Shown here in pieces: positions 22,583 through 30,319 of a stretch of DNA of 64,000 nucleotides. A program made the translations under genes and the position numbers. Every line of letters starts with the position of its first letter. Within the stretch, counting starts at the first letter, position 1. Source of the DNA: Christiangramia sediminis (lineage in GTDB: Bacteria > Bacteroidota > Bacteroidia > Flavobacteriales > Flavobacteriaceae); NCBI RefSeq assembly GCF_020552705.1, contig NZ_JAJBZG010000001.1:744001-808000 (forward strand), read 5' to 3'. The notes beneath the pieces are model-generated. The model was not told where the DNA came from. It worked only from the letters and a program-made list of their open reading frames with translations, and did no database searches.

Positions 22583-23044
22583 ATGAAATTTTCTTTTCTT
22601 AAAAAGTTTTACGCTCTGGTTTTAATCCAACCAGAACCCTTATCTCATAAACTTAGAAATATTTCTACTGAGTCAAAAAAAATTAAAAAAAAGAACAGAT
22701 TAAAAAATCTGGTATGGCTAGACGATACGTTAAATCCTCAGGACCCCAGAATGGACTGGTTAGCATACAGTCCTGTTGGAAGAGAGGTCAATGTGGTTTG
22801 GATTAAAAGTTATGCAGAGTTTAAACTCTGGCTTGAACTTAACGGTAAACCTGATGGAATATGTTTTGACTACAATTTAGGTATTGGTGCTCCCACTGGA
22901 TACGAATGTGCAAAATACCTAGTTGATTTTTGTAGACGCAATAAATTAAAACTTCCATCCTGGTCGTCTCAGTGCACTGATCCAGTGGAAAAAGTCAAAA
23001 TAAACAGACTTTTAAAATCTGCAGTTACTGTATATGAGTATTAA
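22583..23044 (+). CDS. Stand-alone cyclic-phosphate-processing receiver-domain protein (cREC_REC-like)
   Basis: The 153-residue protein has a basic N-terminal extension (about 1-45). A receiver-like domain follows, with LVWLDDTLNPQDPR, VVWIKSYAEFKLWLELNG, GICFDYNLGIG, GYECAKYLVDFCRRNKLKLP and a final SQCTDP segment. This pattern (WLDD-x-RxP, FDxDLG, GxxCAxxLVDxC) is what I know as the cyclic-phosphate-processing receiver domain. It is a receiver-fold enzyme predicted to act on 2',3'-cyclic phosphates in RNA repair contexts, not a phosphorelay receiver. No RtcB, RtcA or RNA ligase lies nearby, so its partner is unknown. The assignment rests on motif memory. Confidence 0.7.
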   Translation: MKFSFLKKFYALVLIQPEPLSHKLRNISTESKKIKKKNRLKNLVWLDDTLNPQDPRMDWLAYSPVGREVNVVWIKSYAEFKLWLELNGKPDGICFDYNLGIGAPTGYECAKYLVDFCRRNKLKLPSWSSQCTDPVEKVKINRLLKSAVTVYEY

Positions 23045-24227: not shown

Positions 24228-26078
24228 ATGCAGGAAATACCTGATTTATCTGAGAAATCCATTGAGCAAATTTTAACAATTCTTGAAAAGGAAAAAGAAA
24301 TTAGTTGCCATTTACCTGGCAATGGAATTTTGCATATAGAAAAAGAACTTCCCTACTTAGTTGTTTACCGGAGAAAAGAGAAAGATAAAGGTACCAGAAG
24401 ATTCGTGATTAATGAATCTTCCTACCTTATAATTGGAACTGAAGATTTTGCCGGGTACCAGAAGTTATTATATAGAATTTCAGACCAGATTTCTGCAAAT
24501 ATGGAATCCTTTCTATTATTTGAGATCTATGCCGGGCCGGCAGGTTCTTCAAAAATAAAGATTAAGGGTCCTGCGCAGAGGTTACCAGCTACTTTAGATA
24601 CTTTAAAAGAAGAGTTTTTAAAAGTGAATTCAGAATTTACGGGTATTTATCTCGATACAGAAATTCTGGATACTCCCAATAGACAAGCCGAAGGTGAAGC
24701 CGCCTTAATGAAAGTGGAGGACGCTAAAAATTGTGGTGCTGTACTTGTTGGGCTTGAAGTACCTCCCATATACAGAACAGATAACAACCAGTTATACCCT
24801 GTTTTCTTTAGAAATTTTAAGGATTTTCTAATTAAAGCGGTACATCGTTCCTTTTTCGAATTTATCCGGGTTCAAACCTCAGGTGGAGTTACCAGCTTTA
24901 ATGCATTGGGAAGAAAATATCTAAAACAAATAGTTTTTGATATCGACAAACAACTCACAGATATTGAAAAATCCTATCAATTTCTATGGCTGGTCTCCCC
25001 TGCCAATATTCATGATATTAAAAAGCATTTTTTTGACAGCAATTATGATAAAGTTATAGACTACCACTACAGGCTATTACCGGTAGATCCAGATGTACTT
25101 AAAAGAAAACTGTACAATCTAAAGATCGAGGATATAGACGATCCTGCAATGTCTTATTTATTCCGGGAAAAGCGCGAAGAACTGGATATGCAAATCACGA
25201 TGCTCAATGAAAGAGGCACTCGTAATTTTATGTATGATAGTATTCGACTCTATAAGGGAGTAGAAAAAAATCTATGTGAGGAAGCCAGAAATATTCTTAA
25301 TACGGTAAGTGAAGAAACTTCAAAAAGTGATGAAGACCTTTTAGATTCGAAAGCCTTCAGTAGTATGGCTAGGAAAGAATTTGATTTTTATCGTGAACAG
25401 GATGAAAATTTTAAGTGTAAAGTCCATATCAGGAAAGATGTAAATGTAATGATGGTCTCGCACGGAGAATTATATATTCCTGCCGACTATAAAATGAATC
25501 GTGTTGAAGCCGAAGCTTTAATTCAACATGAAGTAGGTACACATGTACTAACTTATTATAATGGGAGTAATCAACCTTTAAATCAATTAAGCATTGGTCT
25601 TGCCGATTATGACCCACTACAGGAAGGACTTGCCGTAATGTCTGAATTTATGGTAGACGGGCTTACCGCAAACCGGCTTAGAATTCTTGCAGGCCGGGTA
25701 ATTGCCGGAGAAGCTTTAATGGAAGGCGGGAACTTTCAGGAGATCTTCAGATTATTAAAAAAAGATTTTGGATTCTCTGCAGAACGAGCTTTCAACATTA
25801 CTTCCCGGATCATGCAGGGTGGCGGATTTATGAAAGATATCATCTATTTAAAAGGTTTGGTATTATTAAAAGAATATTTAAAAAATGGAGGAGAATATGA
25901 ACCTCTTCTGGCCGGAAAATATGGAATAAAACACACCGGTATTATTAAAGAACTTACAGATAGAAAAGTTCTTAAAACCGTGCAGGTTAAACCAAGTTAT
26001 CTGCATAGTGATAAGATGTATAAAAAATTAGAATTAATCAGGCAAGGCCTTAGCCTGCCACAAATGGTATGTAAATGA
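24228..26078 (+). CDS. DUF1704 (QEGLA-motif, MATCAP-type) metallopeptidase
   Basis: The 616-residue protein carries a zinc-binding HEVGTHVLTYYNGS (an H-E-x-x-x-H form) around residue 425 and the name-giving DPLQEGLAVMSEFM. Together these define the DUF1704/TIGR02421 family, labelled flavohemoglobin-expression-modulating QEGLA-motif proteins. Eukaryotic relatives of this fold (MATCAP) are carboxypeptidases that remove the terminal Tyr from tubulin, so peptide carboxy-end trimming is a reasonable family inference. The N-terminal 200 residues are not assigned. Its stop overlaps the ATP-grasp gene start by 4 bases (ATGA), so the two are translationally coupled. Confidence 0.88.
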   Translation: MQEIPDLSEKSIEQILTILEKEKEISCHLPGNGILHIEKELPYLVVYRRKEKDKGTRRFVINESSYLIIGTEDFAGYQKLLYRISDQISANMESFLLFEIYAGPAGSSKIKIKGPAQRLPATLDTLKEEFLKVNSEFTGIYLDTEILDTPNRQAEGEAALMKVEDAKNCGAVLVGLEVPPIYRTDNNQLYPVFFRNFKDFLIKAVHRSFFEFIRVQTSGGVTSFNALGRKYLKQIVFDIDKQLTDIEKSYQFLWLVSPANIHDIKKHFFDSNYDKVIDYHYRLLPVDPDVLKRKLYNLKIEDIDDPAMSYLFREKREELDMQITMLNERGTRNFMYDSIRLYKGVEKNLCEEARNILNTVSEETSKSDEDLLDSKAFSSMARKEFDFYREQDENFKCKVHIRKDVNVMMVSHGELYIPADYKMNRVEAEALIQHEVGTHVLTYYNGSNQPLNQLSIGLADYDPLQEGLAVMSEFMVDGLTANRLRILAGRVIAGEALMEGGNFQEIFRLLKKDFGFSAERAFNITSRIMQGGGFMKDIIYLKGLVLLKEYLKNGGEYEPLLAGKYGIKHTGIIKELTDRKVLKTVQVKPSYLHSDKMYKKLELIRQGLSLPQMVCK

Positions 26079-27121
26079 AAATATGTTTTGTATTAAATGA
26101 TGTTGCTACAGAGAAAAATGGCACATCTACAGCACTAATGTCTATGGCACATCAAAGAGGTCATGAAGTTTATGCTATGGGAGTTGGGGATTTTACATTT
26201 CATCATAATGAACCAATTAGTATAAATGCGGTTTCAGTACCAAAAAGTTTTAAAAGCAAATCGCCTCAGAAATTTCTTGAAGCACTTCAGGAAAAGAAAA
26301 ATAAACCGAAAAAGATTAATTCCTCTAAACTTGATGTATTATTTATTCGAAATAATCCAACCGAGGAAGAAGGACGACAATGGGCAGAACAGGCAGGAGT
26401 TGCTTTCGGAAGAATGATTCAGCAACATGACGTTCTGGTTTTAAATGATGCCTATGCCCTTTCGCATGCATTTATAGATAAACTGTATTTTGAAGAATTA
26501 CCTCAGGAAATAAAACCAGATTCTATAATTACCCGGGATAAGGATCAGCTGCTTGATTTCTGGGAAAAACAGGATAAAAAGATGGTGTTGAAACCTCTTG
26601 AAGGTTCCGGGGGACAGGATGTGTATCTTATAGACAAACATGAGAAGAATGTTAACCAGATCATAGATCATCTAAGCTCTCAGGGTTACGTGATCGCCCA
26701 GGAATTCCTTCCAGCCGTAAAAGATGGAGACGTTCGTGTTCTTCTGTTGAACGGGAAAATTATGGAGAAAGATGATAAAAAAGCAATTATAAGAAGAGTT
26801 GCCGGAGAAGGTGAATTCAGAAGTAATTTCGCTCTTGGAGCAACTGCAGACAGTAGTGATCTTACCCCAGAAATGCAACGTATCGTAGACTTAACCGCCC
26901 CTAAACTAATACGTGACGGGTTATTTTTTGTAGGTCTGGATATCGTAAAGGATAAATTGATTGAAATCAACGTATTGAGTCCCGGCGGAATGGAACACTT
27001 TAAAGATATTGGCTTACCCCCATTTACAGATTATGTAATTGAAGCCATTGAAAGAAAAGTGGAATATAAAAATATGTATAAAGGTCAGCTAAGTAATAGA
27101 ACCTTAGCTACGATGGACTAA
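26075..27121 (+). CDS. ATP-grasp ligase, glutathione-synthetase-like
   Basis: The 348-residue protein has a GshB-like N-terminal half (MKICFVLNDVATEKNGTSTA). An ATP-grasp domain follows, with the lysine/glycine-rich loop MVLKPLEGSGGQDVYLID, YVIAQEFLPAVKDGDVRVL and the metal-binding EINVLSPGGMEHF near the end. ATP-grasp enzymes of this type join a carboxylate to an amino group. It lies between a peptidase and an AstE-like hydrolase with overlap or short gaps. Plain glutathione synthesis is unlikely: no gshA lies beside it. A peptide or amino-acid-conjugate ligase is more probable. Confidence 0.85.
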   Translation: MKICFVLNDVATEKNGTSTALMSMAHQRGHEVYAMGVGDFTFHHNEPISINAVSVPKSFKSKSPQKFLEALQEKKNKPKKINSSKLDVLFIRNNPTEEEGRQWAEQAGVAFGRMIQQHDVLVLNDAYALSHAFIDKLYFEELPQEIKPDSIITRDKDQLLDFWEKQDKKMVLKPLEGSGGQDVYLIDKHEKNVNQIIDHLSSQGYVIAQEFLPAVKDGDVRVLLLNGKIMEKDDKKAIIRRVAGEGEFRSNFALGATADSSDLTPEMQRIVDLTAPKLIRDGLFFVGLDIVKDKLIEINVLSPGGMEHFKDIGLPPFTDYVIEAIERKVEYKNMYKGQLSNRTLATMD

Positions 27122-27130
27122 AGCAATATT

Positions 27131-28042
27131 ATGAGCGAAGAGTTAAAGAAAGATATTCCAAGGATAATAGGAAAATACAGTTCTGGCAAAAAAGGACCTT
27201 TACTTTTTGTAACCGGTGGAATTCATGGAAATGAACCTAGCGGGGTAAAAGCATTGATGACGGTTTTTGAAGAACTGGATAAAACAAAGCCTGAAATTGA
27301 TGGAACTATCGTAGGTGTTTCAGGAAATAAAAAGGCTTTAAATGAGAATAAGCGATATATAGATGAAGACCTTAATAGAACCTGGACTGAGGAAAATGTA
27401 AAGAAGAATCAGCCGGATTCTCATGAGGAACGGGAAATGTTTGAGATCATTGAAGTGCTGAAAGAACAGTCTAAAGGAGATTTCACTAAAAGATATTTCC
27501 TTGACTGTCATACCACCTCCTCGGCAAGCCTGCCTTATGTTTCTGTGCAGGAAGTGAATGACAATGATCAATGGGCTCATAAGTTTCCTACTTACATTAT
27601 TCGCGGATTTAGTGATATAATTACCGGGGATATAGACCATTATCTAAGTCGAATTGGGATGACCGGTTTTGTTTTTGAAGCTGGACAACATACCGATAAA
27701 ACTTCCCAGGAAAATCATGAAGGAGTGATCTGGCTTGCTTTAAAGGAAGCCTGCAGCCTGGATCTAAGTAAAATTGTAACCTATCCGGAATGTGTGGACA
27801 GGTTCGTGAAAAAAAATGCTCCCGAGCAAAAGACTTTTGAAATTCTTTACAGACATGGTTTGGAAGATAGTGATATCTTCGAGATGGAACCGGGTTATGA
27901 AAATTTTCAGAAGATCGAAAAAGGTGAATTACTCGCTAAGCAAAATGGAAATAAAGTAAAAAGTGAATGGGACGCTTATATTTTTATGCCCCTTTACCAG
28001 GCTCAGGGAAATGATGGATTTTTCGTGGTAAAAGAAGTATAA
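27131..28042 (+). CDS. AstE/aspartoacylase-family zinc hydrolase
   Basis: The 303-residue protein belongs to the succinylglutamate desuccinylase/aspartoacylase group of M14-like carboxypeptidases. The zinc-site motif VTGGIHGNEPSG (His and Glu), the third zinc ligand in FLDCHTTSSASLP, the substrate Arg in YIDEDLNRTW and a late Glu in FVFEAGQH are visible. These enzymes cleave amide bonds of N-acyl amino acids or small peptides. It begins 9 bases after the ATP-grasp stop and ends the operon. In this setting it may process the ligase product rather than succinylglutamate; no other ast genes are present. Confidence 0.87.
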   Translation: MSEELKKDIPRIIGKYSSGKKGPLLFVTGGIHGNEPSGVKALMTVFEELDKTKPEIDGTIVGVSGNKKALNENKRYIDEDLNRTWTEENVKKNQPDSHEEREMFEIIEVLKEQSKGDFTKRYFLDCHTTSSASLPYVSVQEVNDNDQWAHKFPTYIIRGFSDIITGDIDHYLSRIGMTGFVFEAGQHTDKTSQENHEGVIWLALKEACSLDLSKIVTYPECVDRFVKKNAPEQKTFEILYRHGLEDSDIFEMEPGYENFQKIEKGELLAKQNGNKVKSEWDAYIFMPLYQAQGNDGFFVVKEV

Positions 28043-28062: not shown

Positions 28063-28090
28063 AAAAAGGTCGCTCATGAGCGGCCTTTTT
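28063..28090. terminator. Bidirectional terminator between convergent genes
   Basis: AAAAAGG-T-CGCT-CATG-AGCG-G-CCTTTTT forms a long hairpin with A and T runs on both sides, lying between the AstE-like gene and the convergent lactonase gene. It should stop transcription from both directions. Confidence 0.85.
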
Positions 28091-29240
28091 ATTTTACGAA
28101 TTCCAAGCAAACAGGAGTCTTGATTTCAAATACAGGTTCCTGAGGTTTTAATTTACCATTTTCAGAATTGATCCTGAAGGTGGTAATATTTCCCGTATCC
28201 TGACTCGCAGCGTATAAATATTTACCGTACGGTGAGATTGCAAAATTTCGGGGAGTTTTTCCTGCTACAGGAACAAAATCTACGTTTGTAAGTTTTCCAG
28301 AATCATCAATTTTAAAAATGGCAATACTATTATGGCCTCTGTTGGAAGCATAAATGAATTTTCCTGAAGGATGGATATGAATATCGGCTCCGGAATTTCC
28401 CTGTTTATAAGATGAAGGGAGAGATGATATATTTTGGATTAATTCCAGACCCCCACCTTTAAGTACTTTATAAACGCTAAGCGTACTATTCAACTCATTC
28501 ATAGAATAAGCATAGCTGCCATTTTTGGCAAAACTCATATGTCGGGGCCCTGAACCTTCTTCAAGTGCAATATACTCCTGCTCATGAGGCGTTAATTTTC
28601 CTTCATTAAAATTATATATCCAGATCTTATCATTACCCAGGTCTGCAATGTACCCATACCGGTTATCTCCACTAATTTTAACTGAATGAGCATGGGATTT
28701 TTCAGGGTTCTCTAAATTGATTTTCTGATTTTTTACCAAACTGCCATCAGCCTCTATTTTATAAGACATCACCACACCACCCATATAATTACTAACAAAC
28801 ACATATTTACCAGACCGGTCTAAAGCTATATGGCAGGGAGCAAATGCGCCGGTAGATTCTTTGCAGATCTCTTTTAGTTTTCCGTCTTCCAATATTTCAA
28901 AAGAATAGATAAAACCGCTTTCTCCTTCGTGAGGTCCTAATTCACTTACTGCAAACAGAAATTTTCCCATCTTCCCAACTTTCACAAAAGAAGGATTGAT
29001 CACTTCAGCAACACTGCCCATAAATTTTAGAGCTCCGCTATCAGAATTTTGATTCAGTAAATAAATACCCTCAGCTTTGCCATCTACATGACCTTCTTTT
29101 TTGGTGTAGGTACCAACATACATTTTATTAATTGAGTCATTTATCTTTCCGCTTTCTACCTGCGCAATTGCTGAATTACTCATAACAAAACATACTATAC
29201 CCAGTAAAACTGAAGTTCTCATTATTTTAAATTTACTCAT
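28089..29240 (-). CDS. Secreted lactonase-family beta-propeller (6-phosphogluconolactonase-like)
   Basis: The protein is 383 residues from the preferred start at 29240, whose ATG forms TAATG with the corA stop. An ATG three codons earlier is also possible. A signal peptide ends near residue 26. The rest is a seven-bladed propeller with repeated F(S/K)NxG-like turns, HIHPSGKFIYASNRGHNS and TPRNFAISPYGKYLYAASQD, typical of PF10282 lactonases (Pgl of E. coli, and fungal muconate cycloisomerases). With a signal peptide it acts outside the cytoplasm, so the physiological substrate may not be 6-phosphogluconolactone. Confidence 0.85.
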   Translation of the reverse strand: MSKFKIMRTSVLLGIVCFVMSNSAIAQVESGKINDSINKMYVGTYTKKEGHVDGKAEGIYLLNQNSDSGALKFMGSVAEVINPSFVKVGKMGKFLFAVSELGPHEGESGFIYSFEILEDGKLKEICKESTGAFAPCHIALDRSGKYVFVSNYMGGVVMSYKIEADGSLVKNQKINLENPEKSHAHSVKISGDNRYGYIADLGNDKIWIYNFNEGKLTPHEQEYIALEEGSGPRHMSFAKNGSYAYSMNELNSTLSVYKVLKGGGLELIQNISSLPSSYKQGNSGADIHIHPSGKFIYASNRGHNSIAIFKIDDSGKLTNVDFVPVAGKTPRNFAISPYGKYLYAASQDTGNITTFRINSENGKLKPQEPVFEIKTPVCLEFVK

Positions 29241-30319
29241 TATATCCATTTCTTTCTTTTAAAATAATAGATCATCAATAAGAAAATAATGATCATCACT
29301 CCCCAAAGTACGAAATAACTGTATTTCCATTGCAATTCAGGGATATATTCAAAGTTCATTCCATAGATACCGGCGATAAAAGTTAAAGGAATAAAGATAC
29401 TGGCCATAATGGTAAGTACCTTCATCACTTCATTCATTTTATTACTTATGGTGGTCATATACATATCCATAAGCCCCCAGATCATTTCGCGATAAATATC
29501 AATATTCTCTGAAATTTGAATAATATGATCGTAAAGATCCCTTATAAAGTTAGCGGTATGTGCATCTATTAGCTCACTGTCTATTTTCTCCAGACGGCTT
29601 ATCACCTCCCGAAGTGGAAAAACTGCTCGGCGTATTCTAAGAATATTTCTTTTAAGGTCCTGTATCTCGTAAGTTATATCATCGCTGGGACGGGAAGTGA
29701 AAAGACTTTCTTCAAGACTTTCAATCCTATCGCTCATATCATCGATCACCAGGAAATAGTTGTCAATAATAGAATCCAGTAAAGCAAACATTAAATAATC
29801 GGCTCCGCGGGACCTTATCCTTCCCTTGGCTGTTTCAATTCGTTCTCTTATGTGATCAAAAACATCTCCATCAGATTCCTGGAAGGTGAGCACATAATTT
29901 TTACCAACAATAATGCTAAGATGTTCATTCTCGATCTCCCCGTTCTTATAGTAAAGCATTTTGGCAACTATAAACAGATAATCGTCATATTTTTCAATTT
30001 TTGGCCGTTGTCCGGTATTCACAATATCTTCCATTACCAAGGGATGCAATTCATAGTAATCTCCAAGCTTTTCGATCTCTTCTACATTACTAAGCCCGTC
30101 TATATTGAACCAGGTAATACTATTTTCATCTACAAATTTGAATGCATCTTCAGTAGTGGTAGAACTGAACCTTTCATAATTTTCTACATTATAATCTATA
30201 ACATCGAGCTTGGTTTCAGAAGCTTCCTTGTGCCCTACGTAGGTCATGGTACCCGGCACCTGATTTACAGATTTCGTAGTTTTAGGACGCCGGAGCAGCA
30301 GCTTTCTTCTTTTCGCCAT
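29240..30319 (-). CDS. corA: CorA-family magnesium/cobalt transporter
   Basis: The 359-residue protein has the long soluble N-terminal domain with a coiled-coil stalk (DDMSDRIESLEESLF, DLKRNILRIRRAVFPLREV). Two C-terminal membrane spans flank the pore signature YGMNFEYIPE. GMN is the defining motif of CorA transporters, and the C-terminus is basic (KRKKWI). It is a pentameric inner-membrane Mg2+ channel. The lactonase start overlaps its stop by one base, suggesting coupled translation; a functional link is not obvious. Confidence 0.95.
   Translation of the reverse strand: MAKRRKLLLRRPKTTKSVNQVPGTMTYVGHKEASETKLDVIDYNVENYERFSSTTTEDAFKFVDENSITWFNIDGLSNVEEIEKLGDYYELHPLVMEDIVNTGQRPKIEKYDDYLFIVAKMLYYKNGEIENEHLSIIVGKNYVLTFQESDGDVFDHIRERIETAKGRIRSRGADYLMFALLDSIIDNYFLVIDDMSDRIESLEESLFTSRPSDDITYEIQDLKRNILRIRRAVFPLREVISRLEKIDSELIDAHTANFIRDLYDHIIQISENIDIYREMIWGLMDMYMTTISNKMNEVMKVLTIMASIFIPLTFIAGIYGMNFEYIPELQWKYSYFVLWGVMIIIFLLMIYYFKRKKWI

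Follow-up and report, generated by a model that had tools for sequence, protein, structure and literature searches.

The question raised by this locus is why a single ligase should be packed into one operon with two different hydrolases. The stretch analysed, referred to throughout as the window, comprises 64,000 nucleotides of the 3.25 Mb genome of Christiangramia sediminis (NCBI RefSeq assembly GCF_020552705.1, contig NZ_JAJBZG010000001.1, positions 744,001 to 808,000; G000:C2:744001-808000 in our genome set). Three plus-strand open reading frames (ORFs) of 616, 348 and 303 amino acids lie together in it, joined by a 4-base overlap and then separated by a 9-base gap. A sequence-only reading of the window had described them as an operon of a MATCAP peptidase, a GshB-like ligase and an AstE-type hydrolase, and the ORF positions, the two junctions and the Pfam matches all bear this description out. 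MATCAP enzymes trim microtubule tails in humans, and it is the role of their bacterial relatives that gives the locus its interest. The operon is one version, carried by a single Bacteroidota clade, of a widespread module that is real, conserved and under-studied. The features concerned are as follows (window coordinates).

24228..26078, plus strand: MATCAP-family (PF08014, DUF1704, 'QEGLA') putative zinc carboxypeptidase, long form, 616 amino acids
24315..24878, plus strand: N-terminal domain of MATCAP with the fold of the FGase amidohydrolases, residues ~30-217, predicted non-catalytic
25527..25544, plus strand: HEVGTH zinc-binding/catalytic motif, MATCAP residues 434-439, from alignment to HEIGTH of human KIAA0895L
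25620..25634, plus strand: QEGLA motif, MATCAP residues 465-469, E466 being the probable third zinc ligand from alignment to EEG of human KIAA0895L
26075..27121, plus strand: GshB-like ATP-grasp carboxylate-amine ligase, NCBIfam PRK12458 type, 348 amino acids
27131..28042, plus strand: AstE/aspartoacylase-family zinc amidohydrolase, 303 amino acids (PF24827, E 7e-19)
27224-27235, plus strand: HGNE motif of the window AstE, invariant in 14/14 AstEs

Conservation of the peptidase-ligase pair

A genome-wide search was performed with a 13-row MATCAP alignment and the best 80 of 573 relatives were kept, a sample biased toward relatives of the window. A ligase gene was found within 400 bp of the MATCAP gene in 79 of the 80 loci and on the same strand in 78, the sole unlinked locus (L069) being cut off by the end of its contig. 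According to their record titles or lineage labels, these loci span eleven phyla (Bacteroidota, Planctomycetota, Gemmatimonadota, Acidobacteriota, Verrucomicrobiota, Kiritimatiellota, Calditrichota, Poribacteria, Campylobacterota, Myxococcota and Pseudomonadota). The sequence-only reading had named rarity of this gene neighbourhood as one observation that would refute its proposal; for MATCAP and the ligase the opposite was found.

Within 345 genomes of the window's phylum, PF08014 was detected in 18. Nineteen module ligases, some of them taken from the genomes searched, were made into a profile (A4), which matched 17 of these 18 at E<=1e-100, a line that was set after the gap was visible, and two genomes with no MATCAP (G194 and G076) gave matches at 1e-62 and 1e-55. 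At E<=1e-30 the ligase profile matched 17/18 MATCAP genomes versus 2/327 others (Fisher P 1.2e-25, with relatedness ignored).

A MATCAP match was present in 126 plasmid records, from which nine regions were fetched. The order FGase, MATCAP, ligase was observed in seven of the nine, by annotation in Mesorhizobium, Shinella, Pararhizobium, Roseateles and Aminobacter and by ORF and profile in two Sinorhizobium regions, while the Photobacterium sp. GJ3 region (L125) carried a ligase and an FGase-MATCAP fusion. Besides L125, a single-frame fusion of this kind was seen only at L025 among the 80 kept loci and the surroundings L020-L036. Duplicated module genes were observed at L049, L050, L089, L093 and L114, with two ligases in Salinimicrobium, while Planctomycetota loci have as many as three ligases or a pair of MATCAPs.

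The MATCAP peptidase

The window MATCAP belongs to PF08014 (E 1.5e-78, 264.8 bits, gathering cut-off 27), and its score of 299.8 bits lies below the cut-off of 338.65 for TIGR02421, the NCBIfam QEGLA hypothetical equivalog. It is 85% identical to the MATCAP of Gramella jeungdoensis. Residues H434, E435 and H439, together with Q465-E466-G467, were invariant in 36/36 rows of the MATCAP alignment (A2), and its HEVGTH and QEG motifs align with HEIGTH and EEG of the human KIAA0895L structure 7z5g; the available text of PMC10499314 describes EEG of human MATCAP as a putative third-ligand motif. The catalytic motifs, which had been called intact on first inspection, are indeed so, both here and in AstE (below). 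From its sequence the protein is probably a zinc carboxypeptidase that removes a C-terminal residue. The predicted catalytic fold of the module MATCAP is that of the human MATCAP/TMCP enzymes, the PDB structure rows being re-ranked Foldseek matches which express likeness of fold and are no proof of function.

The bacterial long form differs from human MATCAP/TMCP1 (KIAA0895L) and TMCP2 by its operon with a ligase and by an N-terminal FGase-like domain. Residues ~30-217 adopt this second amidohydrolase fold, of the FGase type, in which a conserved histidine has been lost; the domain is predicted to be inactive, and R48 and E99 are invariant within it. A distant MATCAP match (E 8e-11) was also observed in a Pseudomonas phage record (Y1; OQ572403.1 63533-64432).

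The third gene is AstE or FGase

When profiles were searched over all six frames, a third gene was found in 72 of the 80 loci, AstE in 35 and FGase in 37, with both in none and neither in eight. The design of one ligase with two hydrolases thus recurs, which supports that part of the sequence-only reading, but AstE is not its standard partner. Each of the 35 AstE genes is found no more than 500 bp from the ligase gene, 32 of them on the ligase strand and three convergent (L074, L078 and L081), and 36 of the 37 FGase genes are at most 700 bp away from MATCAP and share its strand. Of the surroundings fetched for the 17 MATCAP genomes other than that of the window (L020-L036), 14 had FGase, two had AstE (L034 and L036, L034 being the same locus as L074, present in two collections) and one had no third gene (L020, genome G186). 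Operons annotated as N-formylglutamate amidohydrolase, QEGLA motif protein and glutathione synthetase or synthase are the same module, with FGase upstream instead of AstE downstream.

Among the eight loci lacking a third gene, L069 ends with its contig and L086 and L111 are on short contigs. For the other five, FGase was found elsewhere in four genomes, that of L085 also having a module-type AstE elsewhere, and neither FGase nor a module-type AstE was found in the genome of L088.

When 89 MATCAP rows were placed in a tree, the loci with AstE fell into one group, requiring one change (SH-like approximate likelihood ratio test (SH-aLRT) 87; a quick tree with no bootstrap). The group consists of Flavobacteriaceae, Cyclobacteriaceae and one Saprospiraceae; the Sinorhizobium row L122 is an over-long ORF on a long branch. 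This topology fits a single replacement of FGase by AstE, and the occurrence of FGase with short MATCAPs on a far branch suggests that FGase is the older partner of the module.

The window AstE belongs to the fold family AstE_AspA_cat (PF24827, 68.6 bits, gathering cut-off 25). Its score against TIGR03242, the model for AstE proper, was 48.5 against a cut-off of 305.65, marking it as a relative and not the AstE of arginine catabolism. Residues H32, E35, N82-R83, H127 and E183 were invariant in 14/14 AstEs, and the AstE profile (A3) matched the succinylglutamate desuccinylase structure 1yw6 (E 1.9e-12). The possibility that AstE and FGase are detectable sequence relatives was rejected (hhalign probability 0.9%). 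Both families include enzymes that free glutamate from an N-acyl-glutamate, so the step they share probably releases an acidic amino acid; these named activities are the strongest clue to the third step, which the interchange of the two genes narrows to a reaction within reach of both amidohydrolase families.

The AstE family itself was rejected as a hallmark of the module, relatives at E<=1e-30 being present in 54 of the 345 genomes, where the module genes occupy only the three best places (G000, G053 and G273, E<1e-130). Of 52 listed places with a non-module AstE, 17 were fetched, and in 14 of these the gene adjoins that of a protein of a GCS2-like CBS cluster; these partners (L138, L143 and 12 other loci) are 616-654 amino acids long and form one BLAST cluster, two members of which were scanned with Pfam, giving a C-terminal CBS pair in both and GCS2 in one. 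An operon in which RimB (PF05618), RimK and AstE genes are packed together lies outside the window in the same genome (contig C1, L137:4848-7140). Given this triad and the CBS-cluster pairs, AstE beside an amide ligase is a repeated theme.

The ligase and the glutathione question

The window ligase matched GSH-S_ATP (PF02955, 4.1e-48) and GSH-S_N (5.2e-9), and exceeded the cut-off of the PRK12458 subfamily (NF009110; 448 bits against 408), a subfamily whose name does not establish function. It fell below the cut-offs of both glutathione synthase equivalogs, scoring 182.1 against 299.05 for TIGR01380 and 198 against 272 for PRK05246. In a ligase tree of 28 rows the ligases of long-MATCAP loci formed a clade of their own (95/99; GSHB1) and the true GshBs another (100/100). 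Module ligases read RSN and SPGG where the three true GshBs read RGN and SPT, RSN being found in RimK as well. The ligase ORF is split in two at L085 and L109.

It was considered whether the ligase could be a divergent glutathione synthase, with the hydrolases degrading glutathione. GshB is the closest fold and family, the NCBIfam label reads 'glutathione synthetase', and rhodanese genes lie within the L026 and L029 modules. A GCS2 protein was found in six of the 17 module genomes, including that of the window, and a protein of the GCS2-like CBS cluster occurs in no fewer than three of the remaining 11 (G134, G103 and G118). However, no Pfam-recognised glutamate–cysteine ligase was found in those 11 genomes, in all of which GCS2 is absent, and PF04262 was found in 0/18 MATCAP genomes. 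(PF08886 likewise gave 0/18, in a search that found no match in controls either.) The one GCS2 protein of the window's genome sits in a different operon, and the two true GshBs of the 345-genome sample, whose genomes lack MATCAP, each have a GCS2 protein nearby. Because of its separate clade and the lack of a Pfam-recognised glutamate–cysteine ligase in 11/17 module genomes, the module ligase is, as judged by sequence, probably not an ordinary glutathione synthase. That identity was rejected as the principal explanation on the missed equivalog cut-offs, the separate clade and the GCS2/PF04262 pattern, with the six GCS2-bearing genomes, the PF08886 search that matched no control and the CBS-cluster proteins of G134, G103 and G118 as reservations, and glutathione metabolism is considered very improbable as the role of the module. 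The sequence-only reading would have been refuted by a ligase that is a glutathione synthase or the synthase of another known metabolite; the ligase may yet be one of the latter kind. Relative to E. coli GshB, the module ligase thus differs in clade, in motifs and in its scores against both models, and no glutamate-cysteine ligase is linked to it.

A ligate, trim and recycle cycle as a possible role

Among the closest known parallels are the RimB-RimK operons (with AstE), in which, as in the module, an ATP-grasp ligase stands beside a protease that trims the ligase product. The two differ in that RimB is a retropepsin-like aspartic protease and the module peptidase a predicted gluzincin carboxypeptidase, while the module ligase, unlike RimK, belongs to the GshB branch and carries a GSH-S_N domain. 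The window operon accordingly falls outside the RimB-RimK group, its peptidase matching PF08014 and not PF05618 and the N-domain of its ligase GSH-S_N and not PF18030; by analogy the module may work like RimB–RimK without being a member. A second parallel in the window's genome, outside the window on contig C2 (L037:5842-9211), is an operon of overlapping RLAN/RimK-like ATP-grasp, GCS2 and FGase genes, which resembles the module in packing a ligase with FGase and differs in having GCS2 as a second ligase and no peptidase.

The reading we tentatively prefer, while putting it somewhat below an even chance, is a cycle of ligation, trimming and recycling that acts on a short peptide, probably one containing glutamate. 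At the expense of ATP, the GshB-like ligase would activate a small peptide or acyl-glutamate at its C-terminal carboxylate and attach an amino acid there; MATCAP would take off the C-terminal residue, reversing the ligase step; and AstE, or FGase in other lineages, would cleave the remaining N-acyl amino acid to give a free, probably acidic, amino acid. The substrate would most likely be a small glutamate-containing peptide metabolite with a level tracking osmotic or ionic conditions. In favour of this reading stand the gene linkage, the FGase-MATCAP fusions, the mutual exclusion of AstE and FGase, the FGase fold kept in the long MATCAP, the ligase clade apart from true GshB, the low-salt induction in Photobacterium and the symporter genes beside some modules. 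We infer the order of the reactions, the substrate, glutamate as the residue and the physiology of the module. Small molecules are what ligases of the GshB type and amidohydrolases of the AstE/FGase type act on, and a glutamate/dicarboxylate symporter (SDF) gene adjoins some modules, which is why we lean to a small glutamyl peptide; such a metabolite fits both amidohydrolase families at least as well as a tagged protein end. As the ligase is a constant partner it offers a direct handle: once its product is found, the substrate of the peptidase is likely to be in hand.

Several observations weigh against this cycle. MATCAP occurs without the ligase in G186, the only such case among the 18 MATCAP genomes, and at a Pseudoalteromonas plasmid locus (L126:6968-8248), where a short MATCAP adjoins a redoxin gene and lies near arginine succinyltransferase genes; MATCAP can therefore work outside the module. 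A 914-amino-acid ORF at L035 was rejected as a MATCAP-ligase fusion, the domain matches being in two different frames. The exchange of FGase for AstE was seemingly one event, so the retention of AstE across genera is not independent evidence. The GCS2 protein of the window's own genome counts here too. Ligase and peptidase genes of Photobacterium damselae, identified by annotation, both rise at low salt (PMC10308900, available text), which is compatible with either making or breaking of the product as the dominant process. No acceptor or precursor gene was found to recur across distant loci among ORFs of at least 45 amino acids within 4 kb (BLAST clusters, best 22). Finally, MATCAP enzymes are not known to act on anything but tubulin tails, which makes a protein target possible as well.

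The latter target is that of a different scheme, in which one protein or a small number of them would receive an extra C-terminal residue from the ligase and lose it again to MATCAP, while AstE or FGase would clear the released pieces. The process would be a bacterial counterpart of the tubulin tyrosination/detyrosination cycle or of the modification of ribosomal protein S6 by RimK and RimB. The human MATCAP/TMCP enzymes are carboxypeptidases acting on tubulin tails (PMC10499314, available text) and share their catalytic fold, as predicted, with the module MATCAP. In the available part of PMC11957791, RimB strips glutamates from polyglutamated RpsF, the target of RimK, and RimB-RimK hybrids exist; the RimB-RimK-AstE operon described above provides a parallel in the window's own genome. 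The 'tag and untag' idea of the sequence-only reading is hence possible, though as a full account protein-end tagging appears doubtful. Its bolder version, a quite improbable one, would make the module a bacterial cousin or the source of the eukaryotic tubulin-tail cycle, with a protein C-terminus reversibly tagged, the FGase-fold domain (R48 and E99) reading an acidic tail and AstE or FGase recycling the residue. Modification of a peptide of the ribosomally synthesised and post-translationally modified type was rejected for the surroundings covered by that ORF comparison, since none of the small ORFs in it was shared between distant loci; a peptide gene may lie elsewhere.

The families of the three parts are already known. 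As far as can be told, the mutually exclusive AstE and FGase genes, the inactive FGase-fold domain of long MATCAPs and the setting apart of the ligase from glutathione synthase are new. No account of the module or of the function of bacterial MATCAPs was found in the literature searched. The study of Iyer and others (2009) on amidoligases may hold an earlier prediction of the module. Within the literature searched, the word QEGLA was met only in the available text of PMC10308900.

Salt response and neighbouring genes

The available text of PMC10308900 reports that P. damselae A0J47_RS17020 ('GshB') and RS17025 (QEGLA) were up 38.42-fold and 27.51-fold, respectively, in 1% versus 3% NaCl; it puts the two genes in different classes and discusses RS17020 as a glutathione synthetase. 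We read the pair as the module, since the locus tags are consecutive and a similar pair is present in Photobacterium sp. GJ3, the P. damselae genes being assigned by annotation only. Genes annotated 'glutathione synthetase', including this low-salt-induced one, may be misnamed.

Neighbouring genes were examined by profile and by Pfam scans of ten chosen genes. A CorA gene was present in 13 of 86 loci, in 11 of them within 2.5 kb, and seven of these 11 belong to one group of Flavobacteria. MscS gave eight matches in seven loci, four near and four far, one of them weak, and so is not enriched near the module. Low-salt induction and the CorA genes weakly suggest an osmotic or ionic role; an osmotic-stress neighbourhood as such was judged suggestive at best. 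SDF symporter genes adjoin the modules L023, L026 and L087 (by Pfam) and L094 and L102 (by profile).

The same observations bear on a salvage role with storage, in which the hydrolases would chiefly degrade N-acyl or glutamyl peptides, the cell's own or imported, when the cell meets an osmotic downshift or starvation, leaving the ligase to store or cap any glutamate in excess. Hydrolases outnumber the ligase 2:1, and the symporter, the low-salt induction in Photobacterium (PMC10308900, available text) and the nearby CorA genes would all suit such a role. However, a ligase would be an unexpected companion in a set devoted to catabolism alone, and no partner in the module is more constant, and the CorA and MscS distributions just given lessen the weight of the neighbourhood; we regard salvage as improbable.

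In the window, positions 28089-30319 (minus strand) hold a gene for a lactonase-type seven-bladed propeller and a CorA gene, which overlap. Related Flavobacteria have the same two genes next to their modules, and loci from Planctomycetota, Poribacteria and Calditrichota have CorA by itself. A small acidic protein of ~110 amino acids is encoded between rhodanese and FGase in two short-MATCAP modules (L029:6112-6438 and L030:6131-6469), that of L029 having no NCBIfam match. On the other side of the operon, positions 22583-23044 of the window (plus strand) encode a stand-alone cyclic-phosphate processing receiver domain (cREC_REC, PF20274, 7.6e-13).

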